This document shows, piece by piece, positions 35,082 to 45,003 of a DNA stretch of 64,000 nt (position 1 is the first letter of the stretch; every line of letters starts with the position of its first letter). A program made the position numbers and the translations under genes. This DNA is from Oceanicola granulosus HTCC2516 (GTDB taxonomy: Bacteria; Pseudomonadota; Alphaproteobacteria; Rhodobacterales; Rhodobacteraceae), in NCBI RefSeq assembly GCF_000153305.1, contig NZ_CH724107.1, positions 2,263,117 through 2,327,116 of the forward strand, given 5' to 3'. The notes under the pieces are model-generated. The model searched no databases, was not told the origin of the DNA, and worked only from the letters and a program-made list of their open reading frames with translations.

Positions 35082-35161
35082 GGCGCGAGGCTACCCGCCG
35101 CCGGCGCGCCTTGTCCATCGCCGGCCGGGGCTCCATATGTGGCCCAAACGAAAGGATCTTC

Positions 35162-35722
35162 ATGGCGGACTCTCAGTTTCCCGGCTGGCACGGCACCACG
35201 ATCATCGGGGTGCGCAAGGGCGGCGAGGTGGTCATCTCCGGCGACGGTCAGGTGAGCCTTGGCGACACGGTCATCAAGGGCACCGCGCGCAAGGTCCGGC
35301 GGCTGTCGCCGGGCGGCTACGACGTGATCGCCGGCTTCGCCGGCTCCACGGCCGACGCCTTCACGCTGCTCGAGCGGCTCGAGAAGAAGCTCGAGGCGAC
35401 GCCGGGCCAGCTGGCGCGGGCGTCGGTCGAGCTGGCGAAGGACTGGCGCACGGACAAGTACCTGCAGAAGCTCGAGGCGATGCTGATCGTGTCGGACGGC
35501 AAGGACATGTTCGTCATCACCGGCGCCGGCGACGTGCTCGAGCCCGAGCACGACGTCGCCGCCATCGGGTCGGGCGGGAACTACGCGCTCGCGGCGGGCC
35601 GGGCGCTGATGGACACGGAGCACGACGCCGAGGAGATCGCGCGGCGCGCCATGCAGATTGCGGCCGACATCTGCGTCTATACCAACGGCAACACGACGGT
35701 GGAGAAGCTCACCGCCTCCTAG
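35162..35722 (+). CDS. hslV: ATP-dependent protease peptidase subunit HslV
   Basis: Proteasome-like peptidase of the HslUV complex. The nucleophile threonine follows a short propeptide: [13 protein letters not shown], with T12 as the expected mature N-terminus. [14 protein letters not shown] and [16 protein letters not shown] are family motifs. I chose the ATG at 35162 (186 residues), which has AAAGGA upstream. Its ATPase hslU is not adjacent but about 8 kb downstream. The stop shares CTAG with the convergent phosphoesterase gene. Confidence 0.97.
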
Positions 35723-36510
35723 GGCTCGAGCTTGCTCCAGCCGGACTCGCCCCGGGCGTAGGTGACGCCGGCGTCCGGGGTGAACTCGGCGTCGTCGCCG
35801 GCGCTGTAGGAGGTAATCGCCACCTCGCCGTGGGCGACGTCGAGCAGGTTGAAGGTGTTCGGCTCGCCGCGCAGCCGGTCAGAGAGCGAGGTGCCGGCCT
35901 GCACGAACAGCAGGCCCGGCGCGGCGCGGAACGGGCGCACGATGGTGTTGTGCAGGTGCCCCGACAGCACGATGTCGGCGCCGCATTCCTCGAGCCGCGC
36001 CAGCGCCTCGTTCGCGCCGCGCATCAGCCGCTTGTCCACCTCCGGCCCGTGCTGGAGCGGATGGTGCAGCATCACGATGCGGACCCGGCGCTCGATGTTG
36101 GCGAAGGCGGCGCAGACCCGGTTGACCGTGCGCCGCGAGATGTGGCCGCGCTGCCAGGAGAACGGGTTGACGGTGTTGACCCCGGCGACGACGACGTTCT
36201 CGTTCTCGAAGTTCGGCTCGAGGTCGTCGGAGATCGCCTCCCGGTAGCGCTTCCAGGGCGCGAAGGCCCGGACCAGCAGGTTGTCGAGCGGCGTGTCGTG
36301 GTTGCCCGGCACGGCAAGCCAGGGCTGACCGATCTTCTCGAGAAACCGGCGCGCGCGCTCGAACTGGCCGACGCGGGCGCGCTGGGTGAAGTCGCCGGAG
36401 ATCGCGACGAGGTCGGGCGCGAGCTTGTCGACGCTGCGCAGAAGCGGGGCCTCCAGTTCGGCTCTGTCCCGGCCGAAATGCAGGTCGGAGAGGTGCAGGA
36501 TCCGGCTCAT
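35719..36510 (-). CDS. Calcineurin-like metallophosphoesterase
   Basis: A 263-residue phosphoesterase with all dimetal motifs: [12 protein letters not shown] (D-x-H), [10 protein letters not shown] (GD), AVPGNHDTP (GNHD), MLHHPLQHG (H), LSGHLHNT (GHxH). The architecture resembles the CpdA/cyclic-nucleotide and lipid-headgroup phosphoesterases, so the substrate stays open. The ATG at 36510 overlaps the stop of the upstream lipid-kinase gene as ATGA. It is the third gene of a coupled operon with the SDR-VKOR fusion and the kinase. Confidence 0.92.
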
Positions 36511-37460
36511 GTCGCCTCGTGCGCCTGGGGCAGGACGATCCGCAGCGGCGCGCGCGACATCTCGAAGGAGATCGGCCCCTCCTCCCACCGCTTCTCGCCG
36601 TCATAGGCGATCAGCACGCGGCGGCGCTTGTGGACCTCGAGGGTCATCCTCGGCACCTGGTAGAAATCGTAATCCCGCCCCTCCTCGATCCGGCGCAAGG
36701 TCAGGCGGGCGGTGAGCTTGAACAGGTCCCACCGCGTTTCGGCCTTGGCGACGAGCACGGCGAACTTGTCGTCGGAGATCGCCTTCACCCCCTTCAGCCC
36801 GAACCGTTCGAGCTGGTAGGCGGAGCGGCCGACGAAAATCAGCGCCGTGCGCCGCTTGCGGGGTCCGTCGCCGAGGTCGATGGTCACTTCCCACGGCCTC
36901 TTGAACTTCAGGAACGTCCGCAGCACCGACCAGTGCGCGGCGATCCGGCGGCGGCCCCAGCGCTTGTAGACGGATTCGCGCTCGCGCAGGATCGTTGGGT
37001 AGATGCCGAGGCTGGCGTTGTTGAGGAACGGCTGGCCATTGACCGTCCCGATGCGGATGTCGCGCGCCTGCCCCTCGAGGATCTGGCGAGCGGCCTCTTC
37101 CGGCTCTTCCGAGTAGCCGAGACCGCGGGCGAAGAAGTTGAACGTGCCGAGCGGCAGCACGGCCATCGGGATGCCGGTGCCGAGCATCTCGGAGGCGACG
37201 GCGCAGGTCGTCCCGTCGCCGCCGGCCGAGACGACGAGGCTGGCGTCGGAGCGGATCGACTCGCGCAGCGGCCGGTCGGGCTTCCACTCGCAGATGTGCG
37301 CCTGCGCGCCGAGCACCTCCCCCGCCGCCTCGATGGCGGCCCGGTCGCGCGAGTTGCGGCCCGACTTCGGGTTGACGAGCAGGCAGATCGGGCCTTCGCT
37401 TGGAGCGCTGCCACTCGGTCGCGGCGTCTCGGGGGGCGTGTGCATGTTCACCTCTGTCAC
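36507..37460 (-). CDS. Diacylglycerol/lipid kinase family protein
   Basis: A 317-residue member of the DAG-kinase catalytic family, which includes lipid, sphingosine and NAD kinase-like enzymes. Motifs are ICLLVNPKSGRNSRD, VVSAGGDGTTCAVASEML and AVLPLGTFNFFARGLGY. These bind ATP and metal and match bacterial lipid kinases. A GTG at 37460 overlaps the upstream stop as GTGA; an ATG at 37445 is an alternative start. It lies between the SDR-VKOR fusion and the phosphoesterase in a coupled operon, so a shared membrane-lipid or glycolipid task is possible. Confidence 0.9.
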   Translation of the reverse strand: MTEVNMHTPPETPRPSGSAPSEGPICLLVNPKSGRNSRDRAAIEAAGEVLGAQAHICEWKPDRPLRESIRSDASLVVSAGGDGTTCAVASEMLGTGIPMAVLPLGTFNFFARGLGYSEEPEEAARQILEGQARDIRIGTVNGQPFLNNASLGIYPTILRERESVYKRWGRRRIAAHWSVLRTFLKFKRPWEVTIDLGDGPRKRRTALIFVGRSAYQLERFGLKGVKAISDDKFAVLVAKAETRWDLFKLTARLTLRRIEEGRDYDFYQVPRMTLEVHKRRRVLIAYDGEKRWEEGPISFEMSRAPLRIVLPQAHEAT

Positions 37461-39934
37461 CTCACGAACCGCTGCCAGCTGCCGTAGGTCGAGTTGCCCA
37501 CGTCACCGCGCGGGATGCTCAGCGCGATCAGCGCGAGGCCGAACAGCGCCTCGACGAGCAGCAGGCCGAAGCCGGCGCCGGTCATGAACGGCGCGAACAG
37601 CAGCACGACGCCGAGCAGCACGTTGAGGAACCGCGCCAGCCGCGCGACGGCGGCGAGGGCGGCGGCGGAGACGGTCAGCACCAGCGCGCCGACCACGTGG
37701 TTGACGGCGGCGAGGCCGTTGTCCCAGCCGATCAGGAGCGGCGACAGCATGAGCAGCACGGCCAGCGCCATCGAGGCGCCGAGGGTCCAGGGGAAGGTCA
37801 TGCCGCCGGAGAGCATCTCCTTGATGATGACCTTGGGCGGGCGGTTGAAGTCGTCCTCGCTCTGGTCGTCCGGCCCCTCGTCGGTGTCGCCCAGGAAGAA
37901 CACCTTGAGCCACGGCTGCCCGGCCCGGTGGCGGCGGCGCAGGAACTGGCCCGTCGCGACGAGCTCGTCGACCGAGTAGGGGATCTGGATCAGCATCGCG
38001 GCGGCGGCGACGAGGCAGAGCGCGCAATAGGTGCCGATCAGGATCGGCTGGATCACGATGAAGAAGATCGACACCGCGCCCAGCGGCACGATCATGATCC
38101 CGAAGATCACCGTCAGCCACGGCATCGTCCGCCAGCGCCGGCTCGAGCCGATCACGCCCACGACGATCTCGAGCGCGTAGGTGAGCGCGCCGAGGCCGGC
38201 GTCGGGCACCGGCCACGATTCGGAGACGGAGGAGGTCACGACGGACTCGCTGCCATTCTTGCCCGGCTCCGTGCCGGGGAAGAACGGATCCCACACGCCG
38301 TCGATCGTCTCGAGCTGGTAGGCGGTCAGGTAGCGCGAGATCAGCAGGCCGACGATGGCGAGGATGATGACGGGGATGCGCTGGAACCAGTCGGAGGGCG
38401 AATAGCTCCAACCCTTGGGAATGGTCGGGCCGGTCATCAGCGCGGTCGGCGAGACGCCCGGCGGCGGGCCGACGGCGAGAGCGAGGATCGGGATCAGCAT
38501 CCCGATCAGCGTCGCATTGAGATAGCCCGCGCCGTTCTCGGTCCAGAACAGCAGCGGCGCGAACATCACCCACACCCCGACCGCCGCGGCGACCCAGCGC
38601 GCGAGCCCGTTGCGCCAGGACAGAGCCAGAAGCGACGCGACGATCAGCACCGTGCCCGCGACCATGTCGCTCAGGATCATGCCGACATGGTTGTAGCCCA
38701 GGAGCGGCGGCGAGGTCAGCAGCCAGACGCCGAGCCCCGCATTGACCCAGTGCGCCCACAGCCCCTGCCGGTGCCGCCACTGCACCTCGGCCTCGTAATC
38801 CTGCCGCAGCTTGTCGGGATCGTCGACGCGCTCTTCGGCGGAGCGCATCCAGATCGGCAGACGGATCTTGTTGGCGCGATACCAGCCGGGCGGATCGGAC
38901 TTGAGGTTGGCGACGATCTTCTCGAGCCCATCGCTGATATGGTGCTCGGGCTCCCAGTCGAGCAACTCGCGGGCGCGGTCGATGTCGAGGCTGAAGTGGT
39001 CGCTCGCGAGGTCGATCATGAACGGCCGGATGAACGGCGCCTCGCCCTCGTCGAGCGCATCGGGGATCACCGGCTCGGCCCTCGTCTCGATCCAGGCGCC
39101 GACCTTCGCGAGCGGCTTGGGCAGGCTGATCGTCCGCCACGTGTCTTCGCCGTGGATCAGCGCGCCGATGCGGTTCTGCAGCGCCCGGTAGCCCATCGGC
39201 TGCGGCTCGCCCACGAGGATCGCGCAATCATCGGGCAGCTCGGCGCGGCGGTCGACCACCCGGCGCATGGCGTCGCGCATGTCGTCGGCGTGGATGAAGG
39301 CCTGCCCCGCGTCGAGGTTGCCGGCGTAGACGTGGCTCTTGATGTCACGCTCGTAGATCCGCGCGATCTGCTGGGTCAGGGTCGGGACGGCGGTCTCGTC
39401 GTCGTAGAGCCCGGCAAGGTGGAGCCGCACCGTCTTGATCCCGCCGCGCTCCTCGCGGATCACCTTCTCGGCCTCCGCCTTGGATTGCGGGTAGGCCCAG
39501 TCGGGCGAGACGGGCGTGTCCTCGTCGATCCGCTCGCCGACGTCGCCGGCCTCGTGGATCAGCATGGTGCCGGAATAGACGAACTGCTCGACGTCGAACT
39601 CCTGCAGGTGGCGCAACAGCCGCCGCGTGCCCTCGACGTTGACCTCGTCGTAAAGGGGAGACTTCTCGCCGGTGAAGTCGAAGTAGGCGGCGAGGTGGAT
39701 CACCGAGGCGATCTTGCTGCCGTGCCGCTCCTTCAGCTTGCGGAAGGCGAGCTCCATGGAGGCGTCGTCGGTGAGGTCGCCTTCGACCATCTCGCACGGG
39801 TCGGTGTCGTCGGCACTGCGATCGAAGCCGACGACGCGGTAGTCGGGCTCGAGCGCCTCGACGAGCGCCGTGCCGACGGCGCCGCCGGCGCCGGTGATGA
39901 AGACGAGGGGTTTTTGCTGGTCGATCTGAGGCAT
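37457..39934 (-). CDS. SDR epimerase / SPW-repeat / VKOR membrane fusion
   Basis: An 825-residue fusion. Residues 1-345 are a cytoplasmic extended SDR with NAD-binding GAGGAVG (15-21) and YxxxK (Y148, K152). Residues 396-490 are membrane helices of the SPW-repeat type (HWVNAGLGVWLLTSPP, VGVWVMFAPLLFW). Residues 515-665 look like a vitamin K epoxide reductase domain with CxxC in GTYCALC (C637, C640). The preceding loop (about 545-585) has no cysteine, unlike canonical VKOR. Further SPW-like helices are at 715-805 (MLSPLLIGW, LLFAPFMTG). It is the first gene of a coupled operon with the lipid kinase and phosphoesterase. The substrate is unknown; a membrane redox enzyme using NAD(P)H is inference. 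Confidence 0.83.
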   Translation of the reverse strand: MPQIDQQKPLVFITGAGGAVGTALVEALEPDYRVVGFDRSADDTDPCEMVEGDLTDDASMELAFRKLKERHGSKIASVIHLAAYFDFTGEKSPLYDEVNVEGTRRLLRHLQEFDVEQFVYSGTMLIHEAGDVGERIDEDTPVSPDWAYPQSKAEAEKVIREERGGIKTVRLHLAGLYDDETAVPTLTQQIARIYERDIKSHVYAGNLDAGQAFIHADDMRDAMRRVVDRRAELPDDCAILVGEPQPMGYRALQNRIGALIHGEDTWRTISLPKPLAKVGAWIETRAEPVIPDALDEGEAPFIRPFMIDLASDHFSLDIDRARELLDWEPEHHISDGLEKIVANLKSDPPGWYRANKIRLPIWMRSAEERVDDPDKLRQDYEAEVQWRHRQGLWAHWVNAGLGVWLLTSPPLLGYNHVGMILSDMVAGTVLIVASLLALSWRNGLARWVAAAVGVWVMFAPLLFWTENGAGYLNATLIGMLIPILALAVGPPPGVSPTALMTGPTIPKGWSYSPSDWFQRIPVIILAIVGLLISRYLTAYQLETIDGVWDPFFPGTEPGKNGSESVVTSSVSESWPVPDAGLGALTYALEIVVGVIGSSRRWRTMPWLTVIFGIMIVPLGAVSIFFIVIQPILIGTYCALCLVAAAAMLIQIPYSVDELVATGQFLRRRHRAGQPWLKVFFLGDTDEGPDDQSEDDFNRPPKVIIKEMLSGGMTFPWTLGASMALAVLLMLSPLLIGWDNGLAAVNHVVGALVLTVSAAALAAVARLARFLNVLLGVVLLFAPFMTGAGFGLLLVEALFGLALIALSIPRGDVGNSTYGSWQRFVR

Positions 39935-40033
39935 GTCGCCTGACAACGCGGCGACTGGCGGGATGGATGCATGTTGAACCGGCCGATCTGCGAAATTCTT
40001 GCGCCGCCGCGTCGGCCCGTGCAACCTCGGCCC

Positions 40034-40822
40034 ATGAAGCCCCTTCTGTTCCTGCTGCTCCCTGGCGCAGCCGCCGCCGCGCCGCTCGACTGCCTGATCG
40101 AGCCGCGCGCCATCGTCGAGATCGCCGCGGCCGACGAAGGGCGGATCGAGGAGGTGCTCGTCGCGCGGGGCGACAGGGTCGCGGAGGGCGACGTTCTGGT
40201 GCGGCTCGACGACGAGATGCAGCGTCTGCAGCTCGCCACCGTCCGGAGCCGCGCGGAGTCCGACCTCGAGGTCCGCGCCGGCGAGACCCGGCTCGAGCTG
40301 CGCGAGACGGAGCTCGCCCGCGCCACCCAGCTCGCCGCGCGCAATGCCGGCGCGGCGACGGCCGTGGACGAGGCGCGCATCGAGGTGGCGCTGACGGAGA
40401 TCGCCATCGAGGAGGCCCGGCTGGCCCGGACCCTTGCCGGGATCGAGGCGGAGCAGGCGGAGGCCCTGCTCGAGCGGCGGGTGGTGCGCAGCCCCTCCGA
40501 CGGCATCGTCGTCGCCGTCGAGGCGGCGCGGGGCGAGTATGCCGGCCAGCAGGCGATCCTCGTGACGCTGGCGCAGATCGACCCGCTGCACGTGGAAGTC
40601 TTCGCGCCGCCGCAATATTTCAACCGGCTCTCGCTCGGCGACAGTTACATGGTGCGCCAGACCACCCCGCTCGAGGGCGCGTACATGGCGACGGTTTCGG
40701 TGGTCGATCAGATCTTCGACGCCGCCTCCAACACCTTCGGCGTGCGGCTCGACCTGCCCAACCCCGACGGCACCATCCCCGCCGGCACCCGCTGCACCGT
40801 CGACTTCGACCTGCCCGAGTGA
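40034..40822 (+). CDS. HlyD/RND-type periplasmic adaptor protein
   Basis: A 262-residue membrane-fusion-type protein with a signal peptide (MKPLLFLLLPGAAAAAP). The lipoyl/barrel-sandwich halves are EIAAADEGRIEEVLVARGDRV and VVRSPSDGIVVAVEAARGEY, separated by a helical hairpin (about 75-150) rich in leucine, alanine and arginine. The C-terminal beta barrel follows. No pump or ATPase gene is next to it, and it is shorter than typical HlyD proteins. The ATG at 40034 is preferred because it begins the signal peptide. It is divergent from the SDR-VKOR gene. Confidence 0.85.
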   Translation: MKPLLFLLLPGAAAAAPLDCLIEPRAIVEIAAADEGRIEEVLVARGDRVAEGDVLVRLDDEMQRLQLATVRSRAESDLEVRAGETRLELRETELARATQLAARNAGAATAVDEARIEVALTEIAIEEARLARTLAGIEAEQAEALLERRVVRSPSDGIVVAVEAARGEYAGQQAILVTLAQIDPLHVEVFAPPQYFNRLSLGDSYMVRQTTPLEGAYMATVSVVDQIFDAASNTFGVRLDLPNPDGTIPAGTRCTVDFDLPE

Positions 40823-40829
40823 ACCGCGC

Positions 40830-40854
40830 TGGCCGGGCTGAAGCCCGGCCTACG
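40830..40854 (-). repeat. REP-like palindrome with GTAG head (copy 2)
   Basis: In the 39-base gap between two convergent genes lies GGCCGGGC (40831-40838), TGAA, GCCCGGCC (40843-40850). Read on the minus strand it is GTAG, GCCGGGC, TTCA, GCCCGGC: the same GTAG head and TTCA loop as the element at 34150, with a different stem. It may also stop transcription from both sides, though no T tract is present. Confidence 0.6.
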
Positions 40855-40861
40855 GGCGGTG

Positions 40862-41803
40862 TCACTGTGTCTGGTAGGCGGCGACGGTGTCGGGGGTGAC
40901 GAGCTGGGGCGGGATCAGGATAACCCGTTCGACGGGATCGCCCGCCGAGAGGTTGAGCGCCGCGGCGAGGGCGGCGGCCCCCTGCCCGGCCGCGTCCTCG
41001 ATGACGGTGACGTCGAGATCGCCCTTGGCCACCGCCTCCAGCGCAGCCGGCGTGCCGTCGATGCCGCCGACGATGATGTCCTGCATCGACCACTCCGCCG
41101 CCTTCATCGCATCGATCGCGCCCAGCGCCATCTCGTCGTCGTTGGCGACGACCGCGTCGAAGGGCTCGCCTGTCGAGAGCCACGCGGTCATCAGGCCGTC
41201 GGCCTCGGCGCGGCTCCAGCCGGCGCTCTGCTCGGCGACGATCCCGAGCATGACGTCGCACGCGCCGTTGCCCAACACGTCGTGGATGTCCTGCGTGCGC
41301 ACCGCGGCCTCGCCGGAGGGCGCGCCCGTCATCACGTAGATAGGGGCCGGATCGGTGCCCTGCGCGCCGAGCAGGCGGCAGACCTCCGCGATCTCCAGCA
41401 GGCCGGCCCCACCCGGGTCGGAGCCGACGTAGGACTGGCTGTCCGGCAGCTGGCCGACATTGCCCGGCTCGCGGTTGACGAAGACGAGCGGCACGCCGGC
41501 GGCCTGCGCGACTTCGGTCATGGCCGCCGCGGCGGCAGGCTCGACGATCTGGACGATGACGGCGTCGACGCCGGCGGCGAGGAAGCCGTTGACCTGGTCG
41601 AGCTGCGTCGCGGAATCGTTCGCGGCGTTCTCGACGACAAGATCGACGCTCATCAACTGGCCGGCCTGCGCGACCATGCTTTCGCGCAGCATGGTCGGGA
41701 TGGTGCCGTCGAACTGGGCCATCGACGCGCCGATGGTCTCGGCGCAGGCGGCGCCGCCGGTCACTATCGCGACTGCGGCCACGGAAATCAGCGATCTATG
41801 CAT
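40862..41803 (-). CDS. Periplasmic sugar-binding protein (RbsB type), orphan
   Basis: A 313-residue exported protein with a signal peptide (SLISVAAVAIVTGGAACAE) and the type I periplasmic-binding fold of ribose/galactose receptors. Motifs are GVDAVIVQIVEPAAAAAM, PLVFVNREPGN and DAVVANDDEMALGAIDAMK, the last being diagnostic of the LacI/RbsB family. No ABC permease, ATPase or transcriptional regulator lies nearby, so its transporter is elsewhere or it serves chemotaxis or sensing. The ATG at 41803 gives a proper signal peptide. The ligand cannot be read from sequence. Confidence 0.88.
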   Translation of the reverse strand: MHRSLISVAAVAIVTGGAACAETIGASMAQFDGTIPTMLRESMVAQAGQLMSVDLVVENAANDSATQLDQVNGFLAAGVDAVIVQIVEPAAAAAMTEVAQAAGVPLVFVNREPGNVGQLPDSQSYVGSDPGGAGLLEIAEVCRLLGAQGTDPAPIYVMTGAPSGEAAVRTQDIHDVLGNGACDVMLGIVAEQSAGWSRAEADGLMTAWLSTGEPFDAVVANDDEMALGAIDAMKAAEWSMQDIIVGGIDGTPAALEAVAKGDLDVTVIEDAAGQGAAALAAALNLSAGDPVERVILIPPQLVTPDTVAAYQTQ

Positions 41804-42029
41804 GTCGTGCTCCTCGGGGGATCGGCTGTTCAAAATGTGTCGCGATATCGTGGCAGGTCTATGGCGACGAAGGCGCGGCAGACACCTTTGGCGCGACCCG
41901 ACGCTCTCGAGGACACGCCGGTTCCAATCGTCCGGGGAAACGCTAACCGCTTGATCTTCAAAGGTCTGCAGCCGTTGCCCACCGCGCCCGGCCGGTGCTA
42001 CCTTGAGGCGAACAGCACCCGGGACCCAG
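41804..42029. promoter_or_regulatory. Divergent spacer between sugar-binding and kinase genes
   Basis: This 226-base gap separates two divergent genes and must hold their promoters. GAGGAGCACGAC on the minus strand is the ribosome site of the sugar-binding gene. I see no clear operator, hairpin or small reading frame. Confidence 0.3.
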
Positions 42030-43631
42030 ATGTCAGACTCCGTCAACGCGTCGGCCCGCCCTGCCCTTGCGGGCGAGCAATTGAGCGATGCGGAGCGCAT
42101 TGTTGCGCTCGAGGCGGAGGTCGTCGCGCTCCGGCAGGCCCAGACGCGGCTGAATCGCGCGCTCGAGGCCGCGGAGATCGGCATCTGGGAACTCGAGATC
42201 GACCCCGACCGAGCGTGGCGCTCGTCGCAGCACGACAAGGTCTTCGGCTATCCCGAGCTGCTCGACGAGTGGAGCTTCGACCGCTTCCTGTCGCACGTGA
42301 TCGAGGAAGACCGCGCCTTCGTGCGGGAGAGCTTCAAGTCCCGGGTCGAGGCGGGGCTGCCGTGGGACTTCCAGTGCCGCATCCGGCGCGCCGACGGGCA
42401 GATCCGCTGGATCGCGGCGGAGGGCGCGCCGACGCTCGACGGCGACGGCAAGGTGCTGCGGCTGCACGGGGTCGTCGCCGACATCACCCGCGCGAAGGAG
42501 GCCGACCAGCGCCTCGCGTCGGCGCAGCGGATGGAGGCGCTCGGTCAGATGGCGGGGAGCCTCGCGCACGACTTCTCCAACATCATCGGCATCATCCGCC
42601 TCTCCGCCGAGGTCGCCGGGCTGGCGAAGGACCCGGAGGATGTGCGCGCCCGGCTCAACGCGATCCTCGAGGCCGCCGACCGGGGCAGCGCCCTGACCGC
42701 GCGCACCCTCGCCTTCGCCCGGCAGGAGCCGGGCCTCAGCCAGGCGACGCGGCTGCGCGAGCTCGTGGACAATCTCGTCCAGCTGCCCGCGAGCCGCGCC
42801 GGCGAGGTCATCGACTACGTCGTCGACATCGATCCGCAGGTCTGCGTCGAGTGCGATCCCGGCCAGCTCGAGAACGCGCTGTTCAACCTCGTGCTCAACG
42901 CCCGCGACGCCTTCGCCCGCTCGGGAACGGGCAGCCGCATCACCATCTCGACCGCACCGGGCCCGCGCGAGGGGATGGTGGAGATCGTGGTGCGCGACGA
43001 CGGCCCCGGCATGAGCGACGACGTCCTCGAGCGGGCGGCCGATCCGTTCTTCACCACCAAGCGCGACGCCGGGGGCACCGGGCTCGGCCTCAGCAGCGTC
43101 GCCGCCTTCGCCGCCGCGGCGGGAGGTGCGCTGATCCTGAGCTCGCGGCCCGGCGAGGGCACGGTGGCGCGTTTCTCCCTGCCCGAGGCCCACGCGCAGC
43201 GGCGCCCCGCGACGCAGGACGACGCGCCGCCGGCCGCCGAACCCGTCGATCTGCGGATCCTGGTGGTGGAGGACGAGGAGAAGCTCGGGGAGGCGCTCGA
43301 CATCGCGCTGAGCGGCATGGGCCATCGGGTGCGCGTCGTCTCCGACGGCCCGGCGGCGCTCGCGGCGCTCGGCACCGAGACGTTCGACGTGCTGCTGACC
43401 GACATCCTGCTGGCGAACGGTCCCAACGGCTTCGAGGTCGCGTCGGCGGCGCGGGAACGGCAGCTGGGCATTCCGGTGATCTACATGAGCGGCTACGCCG
43501 ACCACTCCCACCACCCCGACGCCCCCGCGGGGCCGTTCCTGCGCAAGCCCATCGGGCGCGAGCACCTGCGCCGGGCGCTCGCCGAACTGGCCGCCGCGCA
43601 CGAGGCCGAGCTGCGGTCCCGCTCCGCCTAA
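42030..43631 (+). CDS. Soluble hybrid sensor histidine kinase (PAS-HisKA-HATPase-REC)
   Basis: A 533-residue cytoplasmic hybrid kinase with no membrane segment. After a short coiled coil (about 20-45) comes a PAS/PAC sensor domain (45-155, including [12 protein letters not shown]). The H-box is [16 protein letters not shown] with H180. The ATP-binding boxes are [18 protein letters not shown] and [10 protein letters not shown]. The C-terminal receiver domain has [12 protein letters not shown], the phosphoacceptor aspartate in [10 protein letters not shown], and YMSGYADH. The signal and the downstream regulator are unknown. It precedes hslU by 70 bases on the same strand. Confidence 0.92.
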
Positions 43632-43701
43632 CACCGTCCCGGCTTGGAATCTCGCGGGCAATGCGTATGTCTCGCAGCGAACATGCGCCCGAAGGAGCCC
43701 C

Positions 43702-45003
43702 ATGACCGACCTCACCCCCCGCGAAATCGTCTCGGAGCTGGACCGTTTCATCATCGGCCAGAAGGACGCCAAGCGCGCCGTCGCCGTTGCGCTGCGCAAC
43801 CGCTGGCGGCGCAAGCAGCTCGGCCCGGACCTGCGCGACGAGGTATATCCGAAGAATATCCTGATGATCGGCCCCACCGGCGTCGGCAAGACCGAGATCA
43901 GCCGCCGCCTCGCCAAGCTGGCACGGGCGCCGTTCATCAAGATCGAGGCGACCAAGTTCACCGAGGTCGGCTATGTCGGCCGTGACGTGGAGCAGATCGT
44001 GCGCGATCTCGTCGACACCGCGATCATCGACACCCGAGAGCACATGCGCGAGGACGTGAAGTCGCGCGCCCATGCCGCCGCCGAGGAGCGCGTCATCGCC
44101 GCCGTCGCCGGCGAGGGCGCGCGCGAGGGCACGAAGGAGATGTTCCGCAAGAAGCTGAAGGCCGGCGACCTCGACGACACGATGATCGAGCTCGAGGTGG
44201 CCGACACGTCGAACCCCTTCGGCATGGAGATCCCGGGCCAGCCCGGCATGATGCCGGGGATGAACCTCGGCGACATGTTCGGCAAGGCGTTCGGGCAGCG
44301 CACGGTGAAGAAGCGGATGACGGTCGCCGAGAGCTACGAGACGCTGATCGCCGACGAGGCCGACAAGCTGCTCGACGACGAGATCGTCAAGAAGGCCGCG
44401 CTCGAGGCGGTGGAGCAGAACGGCATCGTCTTCCTCGACGAGATCGACAAGGTCTGCCGCAACTCCGACGCCCGCGGCGCCGACGTCTCCCGCGAGGGCG
44501 TGCAGCGCGACCTGCTGCCGCTGATCGAGGGCACCACGGTGTCGACCAAGCACGGCCCGGTGAAGACCGACCACATCCTGTTCATCGCCTCGGGCGCCTT
44601 CCACATCGCCAAGCCCTCCGACCTGCTGCCCGAGCTGCAGGGCCGCCTGCCGATCCGGGTCAACCTGCGGGCGCTGACCGAAGGCGACTTCGTGCGCATC
44701 CTGACCGAGACCGACAACGCCCTGACCCGCCAGTACGAGGCGCTGATGGCGACGGAGACGGTGGCGGTGAGCTTCACCGACGAGGGGATCGCGGCGCTGG
44801 CCAAGATCGCGGCGGACGTCAACGAGAGCGTCGAGAACATCGGCGCGCGCAGGCTCTACACCGTCATGGAGCGGGTCTTCGAGGAGCTGTCCTTCACCGC
44901 GCCCGACCGGGGCGGCGAGACGGTGACGGTCGATGCGGCCTTCGTCGAGGAACACCTGGGCGAGCTGACGCGCTCCACCGACCTGAGCCGATACGTCTTA
45001 TAA
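43702..45003 (+). CDS. hslU: ATP-dependent protease ATPase subunit HslU
   Basis: AAA+ unfoldase of the HslUV protease. Walker A is [17 protein letters not shown] (about 56-72), Walker B is [11 protein letters not shown], and the intermediate domain lies between. The pore motif [15 protein letters not shown] and the C-terminal tail DLSRYVL, which docks on HslV, are intact. At 433 residues it has the usual length. hslV lies 8 kb upstream on the same strand, not adjacent. Confidence 0.97.

Follow-up and report, generated by a model that had tools for sequence, protein, structure and literature searches.

The reverse strand of a 64,000-nucleotide stretch of the Oceanicola granulosus HTCC2516 genome (contig NZ_CH724107.1; hereafter the window, whose coordinates are used throughout) carries an open frame at 37457..39934 that begins with an ATG at 39934 and translates without an internal stop into an 825-residue protein of SDR-SPW-VKOR-SPW architecture. 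Pfam assigns an extended SDR domain (Epimerase, PF01370; E 1e-23) to residues 11-233 (39236..39904), a first SPW unit, the better of two SPW stretches counted (E 1e-17), to residues 393-486 (38477..38758), and a VKOR domain (E 4.9e-24; 85 bits against a cut-off of 27.5) to residues 521-654 (37973..38374), all three above the curated cut-offs. The second SPW unit, with limits set by hand, spans about residues 740-806 (37517..37717). The protein matches the VKOR (PF07884) and SPW (PF03779) profiles and carries the TGxxGxxG and YxxxK motifs of an extended SDR. The original prediction of one 825-residue polypeptide combining SDR, SPW and VKOR domains is borne out by the uninterrupted translation and the three Pfam assignments, and the motifs it named, G15xxG18xxG21, Y148/K152 and C637/C640, all lie where it placed them. 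The SDR active site reads Y148-P-Q-S-K152 (39479..39493, reverse strand), and the single CxxC of the VKOR domain reads C637-A-L-C640 (38015..38026, reverse strand).

Immediately downstream on the same strand lies a gene of the diacylglycerol-kinase family (PF00781; 36507..37460), whose open frame overlaps the stop codon of the fusion gene, and this is followed by a third gene, again with overlapping open frames, for which Pfam identifies a metallophosphoesterase (PF00149; 35719..36588). The fusion, the lipid-kinase-like gene and the metallophosphoesterase gene probably form an operon. Homologues of the two downstream genes are also found near the fusion at two other loci, L008 and L046, a recurrence that hints at a link to lipids. 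Six genes in all are situated between hslV and hslU in the window (35111-45003): those for the metallophosphoesterase, the lipid-kinase-like protein, the fusion and an HlyD-like protein, identified with Pfam, and those for a substrate-binding protein and a sensor histidine kinase, recognized by eye only. The fusion occupies this site between hslV and hslU in the window, L008, L046 and L047, which together make up one clade (support 94/91). In a genome of the same genus, hslV and hslU are about 2 kb apart, and that genome yielded no match to the fusion protein at E 1e-20. Because the site is common to one clade and the congener lacks the fusion, the window copy seems to be an established chromosomal gene of its lineage. 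Other neighbours at some loci of the window clade include antiporters, DUF2231, cytochrome oxidase subunits, cardiolipin synthase and Hsp20.

The domain architecture recurs in other genomes and on plasmids, as the cross-genome survey proposed with the original prediction established. Five full-length relatives with the same domains are 61-69% identical to the window protein. The full protein has matches in 11 of the 295 genomes searched from its own family; with the membrane half as query, 5 of 385 genomes from the class matched, as did 6 of 398 from the phylum, through open frames of 831-1130 residues. The window genome is included in each count. On plasmids, 136 of 72,556 records match, 73 of them from Sinorhizobium; the plasmid loci considered below come from 23 of the 136 records, picked by hand for variety and not a random sample. 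Plasmid annotations name these proteins after one domain or the other. The VKOR profile matched 4 of the 249 phylum genomes searched: two have members of the SDR-SPW-VKOR family and two have canonical VKORs. The window genome itself shows no second VKOR at E 0.01. Among viral contigs, the fused-protein profile recovered no relative and the VKOR profile a single 28% fragment. Proteins of this kind form a genuine family, present on plasmids as well as in further genomes, and represent more than a chance joining of domains. Conservation was assessed over 49 rows, 42 fused and 7 unfused (46 different in the columns used), with the partial L009 and the apparently broken L070 excluded.

Twelve membrane helices were placed by hand, a hydropathy scan alone having given eight stretches, some of which are merged helices; the hydropathy profile is compatible with a four-helix VKOR bundle. 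AlphaFold models of the protein are weak (pLDDT 51.7 for the full protein modelled with six sequences, and 62.4 for the VKOR part alone, residues 500-685, from a single sequence), and the helices of the weak model roughly match the hand-placed ones. With the loops set by hand, the SDR taken as cytoplasmic and the helices alternating, 17 loop Lys/Arg residues fall inside and 1 outside, and these charges fit the positive-inside rule. The same assumptions would place the CxxC at the periplasmic end of VKOR helix 4 and the motif RWRTMPW (residues 600-606; 38117..38137, reverse strand) in a cytoplasmic loop between VKOR helices 2 and 3. In that motif R600, W601, R602, M604 and W606 are identical in 49 of 49 rows. 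The predicted periplasmic loop (residues 544-577, limits set by hand; 38204..38305, reverse strand) is free of cysteine and has W548, S568, S571 and P575 near-invariant. Elsewhere in the VKOR part the polar residues Q540, D578, Y586, Q629, D656 and E657 are, like W548 and R600-W601-R602, present in every row, and H746 of the second SPW unit is present in 48 of 49. R765 and R768, alongside H746 in the second SPW unit, were found in all 49 rows. A Foldseek search of the PDB with the weak model of residues 500-685 returned no match, and the family profile of the VKOR part gave none to solved VKOR chains. The lone solved structure that this profile did match, a viral spike protein at E 0.76, was taken as a chance hit.

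In the SDR domain, all three glycines of GxxGxxG are present in 38 of 42 fused rows (G15 in 42, G18 in 40 and G21 in 40), and Y148, S151 and K152 in 40 of 42 each; the exceptions for G18, Y148, S151 and K152 are L041 (Cupriavidus) and L064, and G21 is replaced by Ala in L065 and L066. In L041 and L064 the fused active site is degenerate, with LRAMM in place of YPxSK. At both loci the fusion has a stand-alone classical SDR gene and a GH15 gene as neighbours, and a functional replacement of the degenerate SDR by its classical neighbour is possible. An acidic residue, D or E, stands at position 38 in 41 of 42 fused rows. Such a residue in SDRs usually accompanies NAD(H), and by analogy D38 suggests an NAD(H) coenzyme for the window enzyme. 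The closest NCBIfam relatives of the domain are 2-alkyl-3-oxoalkanoate reductase (60.2 bits against a cut-off of 580) and HpnA, the hopanoid-associated sugar epimerase (57.6 bits against 367.65), scores far below the cut-offs that place the fusion SDR outside both families.

The partnership between SDR and membrane domain extends to loci at which the two are encoded separately. Seven loci carry VKOR-SPW unfused to an SDR, six of them plasmid-borne, namely L036 and L040 (Pontibacter), L037 (Stutzerimonas), L038 (Candidatus Manganitrophus), and L039 and L043 (haloarchaea), and the seventh, L054, on a 7.8-kb contig from a genome of the same family as the window. An SDR gene is found beside or near the VKOR-SPW gene in six of the seven. 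A homologous extended SDR lies directly upstream in L036 (Pontibacter actiniarum; 46% identical) and L054 (44%), a different, classical SDR lies downstream in L037, L039 and L043 (assigned by Pfam for L043 only), and in L038 a classical SDR lies downstream beyond a GH15 gene; in L040 no SDR was found within 8 kb. That unfused SDR and VKOR-SPW genes adjoin or lie near one another argues that the link between SDR and membrane part is conserved and not accidental. GH15 is annotated near the unfused gene in L037, L038, L039 and L043 (with Pfam support for L043 only), and a gene annotated as trehalase-like is present in L036 and L040. A run of GH15, classical SDR and VKOR-SPW recurs in haloarchaea, Nitrospirota and Proteobacteria, at L043 (5004-10373), L038 (7857-12175), L037 (7354-12258) and L041 (4548-10487), each with copper-resistance genes, and at L039 (5959-10343), where no copper-resistance genes were shown; it looks like an undescribed module. 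The unfused frame of L019/L054 starts with the heavy-metal-binding-type motif YTCPMHP...CPICGM, which we take to resemble the N-terminus of some metal ATPases.

The original prediction had noted that the loop holding a second cysteine pair in other VKORs has none here, and alignment with the canonical L077 and L079, which possess the pair, agrees: the first loop cysteine has no counterpart, the second corresponds to Ser/Thr, and the loop is free of cysteine in 11 of 11 aligned family members. The CxxC itself is optional among the relatives. Both cysteines are present in 37 of 49 rows and both replaced in 12, with no row retaining just one; the replacement is Ser...Ala in 11 of the 12, and L009, outside the 49 rows, also lacks both. 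The 12 Cys-less rows fall into three clades and require at least three state changes on the tree. A single loss inherited by all of them was rejected by the tree (p-AU 6e-7 when they are constrained to one clade, and 8e-7 for the two clades nearest the window alone, the constrained groups having been named after the data were seen). Across positions 385-825 of the window protein, among those at least 90% conserved in rows that keep the cysteines, only 637 and 640 change consensus in the Cys-less rows. The Cys-less VKOR domains are under purifying selection: dN/dS of the VKOR part is 0.06-0.21 in seven of eight Cys-less pairs, some of which share a row, the eighth being saturated. On these values, decay of the VKOR domain where the cysteines are gone was rejected. 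Identity was higher in the VKOR part than in either the SDR or the SPW part for 10 of the 12 pairs examined. The CxxC is retained in each of the seven unfused rows, so its presence is probably ancestral in the family, the tree of which was rooted at its midpoint.

Since three clades are without either cysteine and every other near-invariant position of the membrane part is unchanged there, the thiol-redox reading, as judged from alignment and tree, fails for the family as a whole. That relatives can do without the key cysteines suggests for the membrane part a present role distinct from thiol chemistry, although the window protein, which keeps its CxxC, may still use it in this way. The idea of an SDR tied to a thiol-redox membrane domain thus survives in its first half, the SDR-membrane link being conserved, and not in its second, thiol redox as the essence of the family.

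Copper-resistance genes accompany one portion of the family. Eight markers were sought by BLAST (Csp, CueR, multicopper oxidase, CopB, CopC, heavy-metal P-ATPase, DUF411 and PCuAC) and were found in 15 of the 19 rows that make up the second fused clade and the unfused relatives (5 of the 7 unfused loci), and in 0 of the 30 others, of which 26 belong to the window clade and 4 to a clade that includes a Sinorhizobium copy; these counts are over related rows and loci of varying length, with all marker references drawn from copper loci themselves. Known copper-resistance island genes (Csp/DUF326, CueR, CopB, multicopper oxidase) adjoin the second fused clade and most unfused relatives; in contrast, none was found in the loci of the window clade, and DUF326 had no match in the window genome. 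Three Cys-less rows, L065, L066 and L074, do carry copper markers, from which it follows that the CxxC is not a required copper ligand. Some window-clade plasmid loci contain genes outside the count, for a CopD-family protein (L033, L063) or a plastocyanin-type protein (L034, L067), which blur the otherwise clean split. In the parts of one report that were available, a hypothetical VKOR is mentioned in a metal-resistance plasmid region of Sulfobacillus (PMC6803676).

By comparison with described systems, the family shares with VKOR (PF07884) its Pfam match, a CxxC that aligns with that of canonical members, and conserved Ser, Gly and Tyr around and after the loop. It differs in the missing loop pair, which is part of the four conserved cysteines of VKOR according to the available portion of a phylogenetic study (PMC4555120), in the losses of the CxxC, in Asp578, where L077 and L079 have Ile/Val, and in the want of a profile match to solved VKOR chains. 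As far as its available text goes, the same study culled sequences that lack the known conserved residues, a step that may explain the absence of the fusion branch there. With the SPW family (PF03779) the protein shares its two SPW stretches. A 2021 paper, with reference to Pfam, notes that certain SPW family members have one additional domain, VKOR or epimerase; in the sections available it gives a structure model and no function, and does not mention the three domains together (PMC8078820). The original prediction knew of no described function for the arrangement, and none was found in the open-access literature; the pairings of SPW with VKOR or with an epimerase, in the partial texts available, are already in print.

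The reading that we tentatively favour, at somewhat less than even confidence and on sequence evidence, is that the protein is a membrane-anchored NAD(H)-type SDR with predicted hydride activity on a lipophilic substrate held by the VKOR-derived bundle. It follows from the pairing with SDRs together with the cysteine losses, which point to a membrane-anchored dehydrogenase whose VKOR bundle would be a ligand-binding or docking module. The cytoplasmic extended SDR, with its D38, would transfer hydride to or from a quinone, another isoprenoid or a lipid carbonyl; the four-helix bundle, flanked by SPW helices, would present this substrate; and the two would meet at the conserved cytoplasmic face of the bundle, formed by RWRTMPW and D656-E657. 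The CxxC would be an inheritance that may still assist the reaction and would not be needed for the conserved function. The domain architecture, the conserved residues, the repeated loss of both cysteines, the pairing with SDR genes and loop charges in keeping with the positive-inside rule are observed; coenzyme preference, the ligand in the bundle and the SDR-bundle contact are what we infer here. Against the reading stand the 2 of 42 fused SDRs without Y and K, the lack of a nearby SDR in L040 and structure models too weak to use, and fusion and gene neighbourhood do not prove joint catalysis by SDR and membrane part. A bolder version, which we regard as unlikely, holds that the bundle has exchanged thiol for hydride chemistry, the SDR directly reducing or oxidizing a quinone-like ligand so that cysteines could be lost repeatedly, and that with its GH15 and SDR partners it forms an undescribed redox module of copper islands common to bacteria and haloarchaea, which has settled chromosomally in the window lineage.

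Three other explanations must be weighed against the membrane-anchored dehydrogenase. The window protein might be a working thiol-quinone oxidoreductase whose CxxC, needing no loop cysteines, would exchange directly with a partner protein or small thiols, the SDR being a separate activity. The retention of the pair by most rows, including the window and every unfused relative, and the absence of any single-Cys row favour this view, as does the modest cost in activity of substituting the loop cysteine C51 in human VKOR, described in the accessible part of PMC7462613. That same portion treats the CxxC pair C132/C135 as the redox centre of the human enzyme, which, with the otherwise unchanged and still selected Cys-less domains, makes a thiol-quinone enzyme rather unlikely. 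Alternatively, the membrane domain could bind or sense copper, or shield a membrane component from it. The marker counts, echoed in annotation tables, speak for such a role; the empty window-clade loci and the Cys-less copper loci speak against it, as do the origin of the marker references in the copper loci themselves and the relatedness of the rows, and we consider it improbable. Copper as the function of the window gene itself was lowered on account of its marker-free clade. Finally, the membrane part could be a mere anchor or scaffold with a VKOR ancestry of no functional meaning. The dispensable CxxC and the profile without a match to solved VKOR chains would suit an anchor, but the VKOR part is the more identical part in most pairs and holds the polar residues invariant in every row, and an anchor appears improbable as well.

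What is understood of VKOR/DsbB-type enzymes centres on their cysteines. A branch with the VKOR bundle still under selection, and with every one of those cysteines dropped more than once, would show this fold to have another job. The natural Cys-plus and Cys-minus sister proteins make the idea of such a job directly testable, and the unfused and second-clade members, set in copper islands, provide a phenotype that can be assayed.
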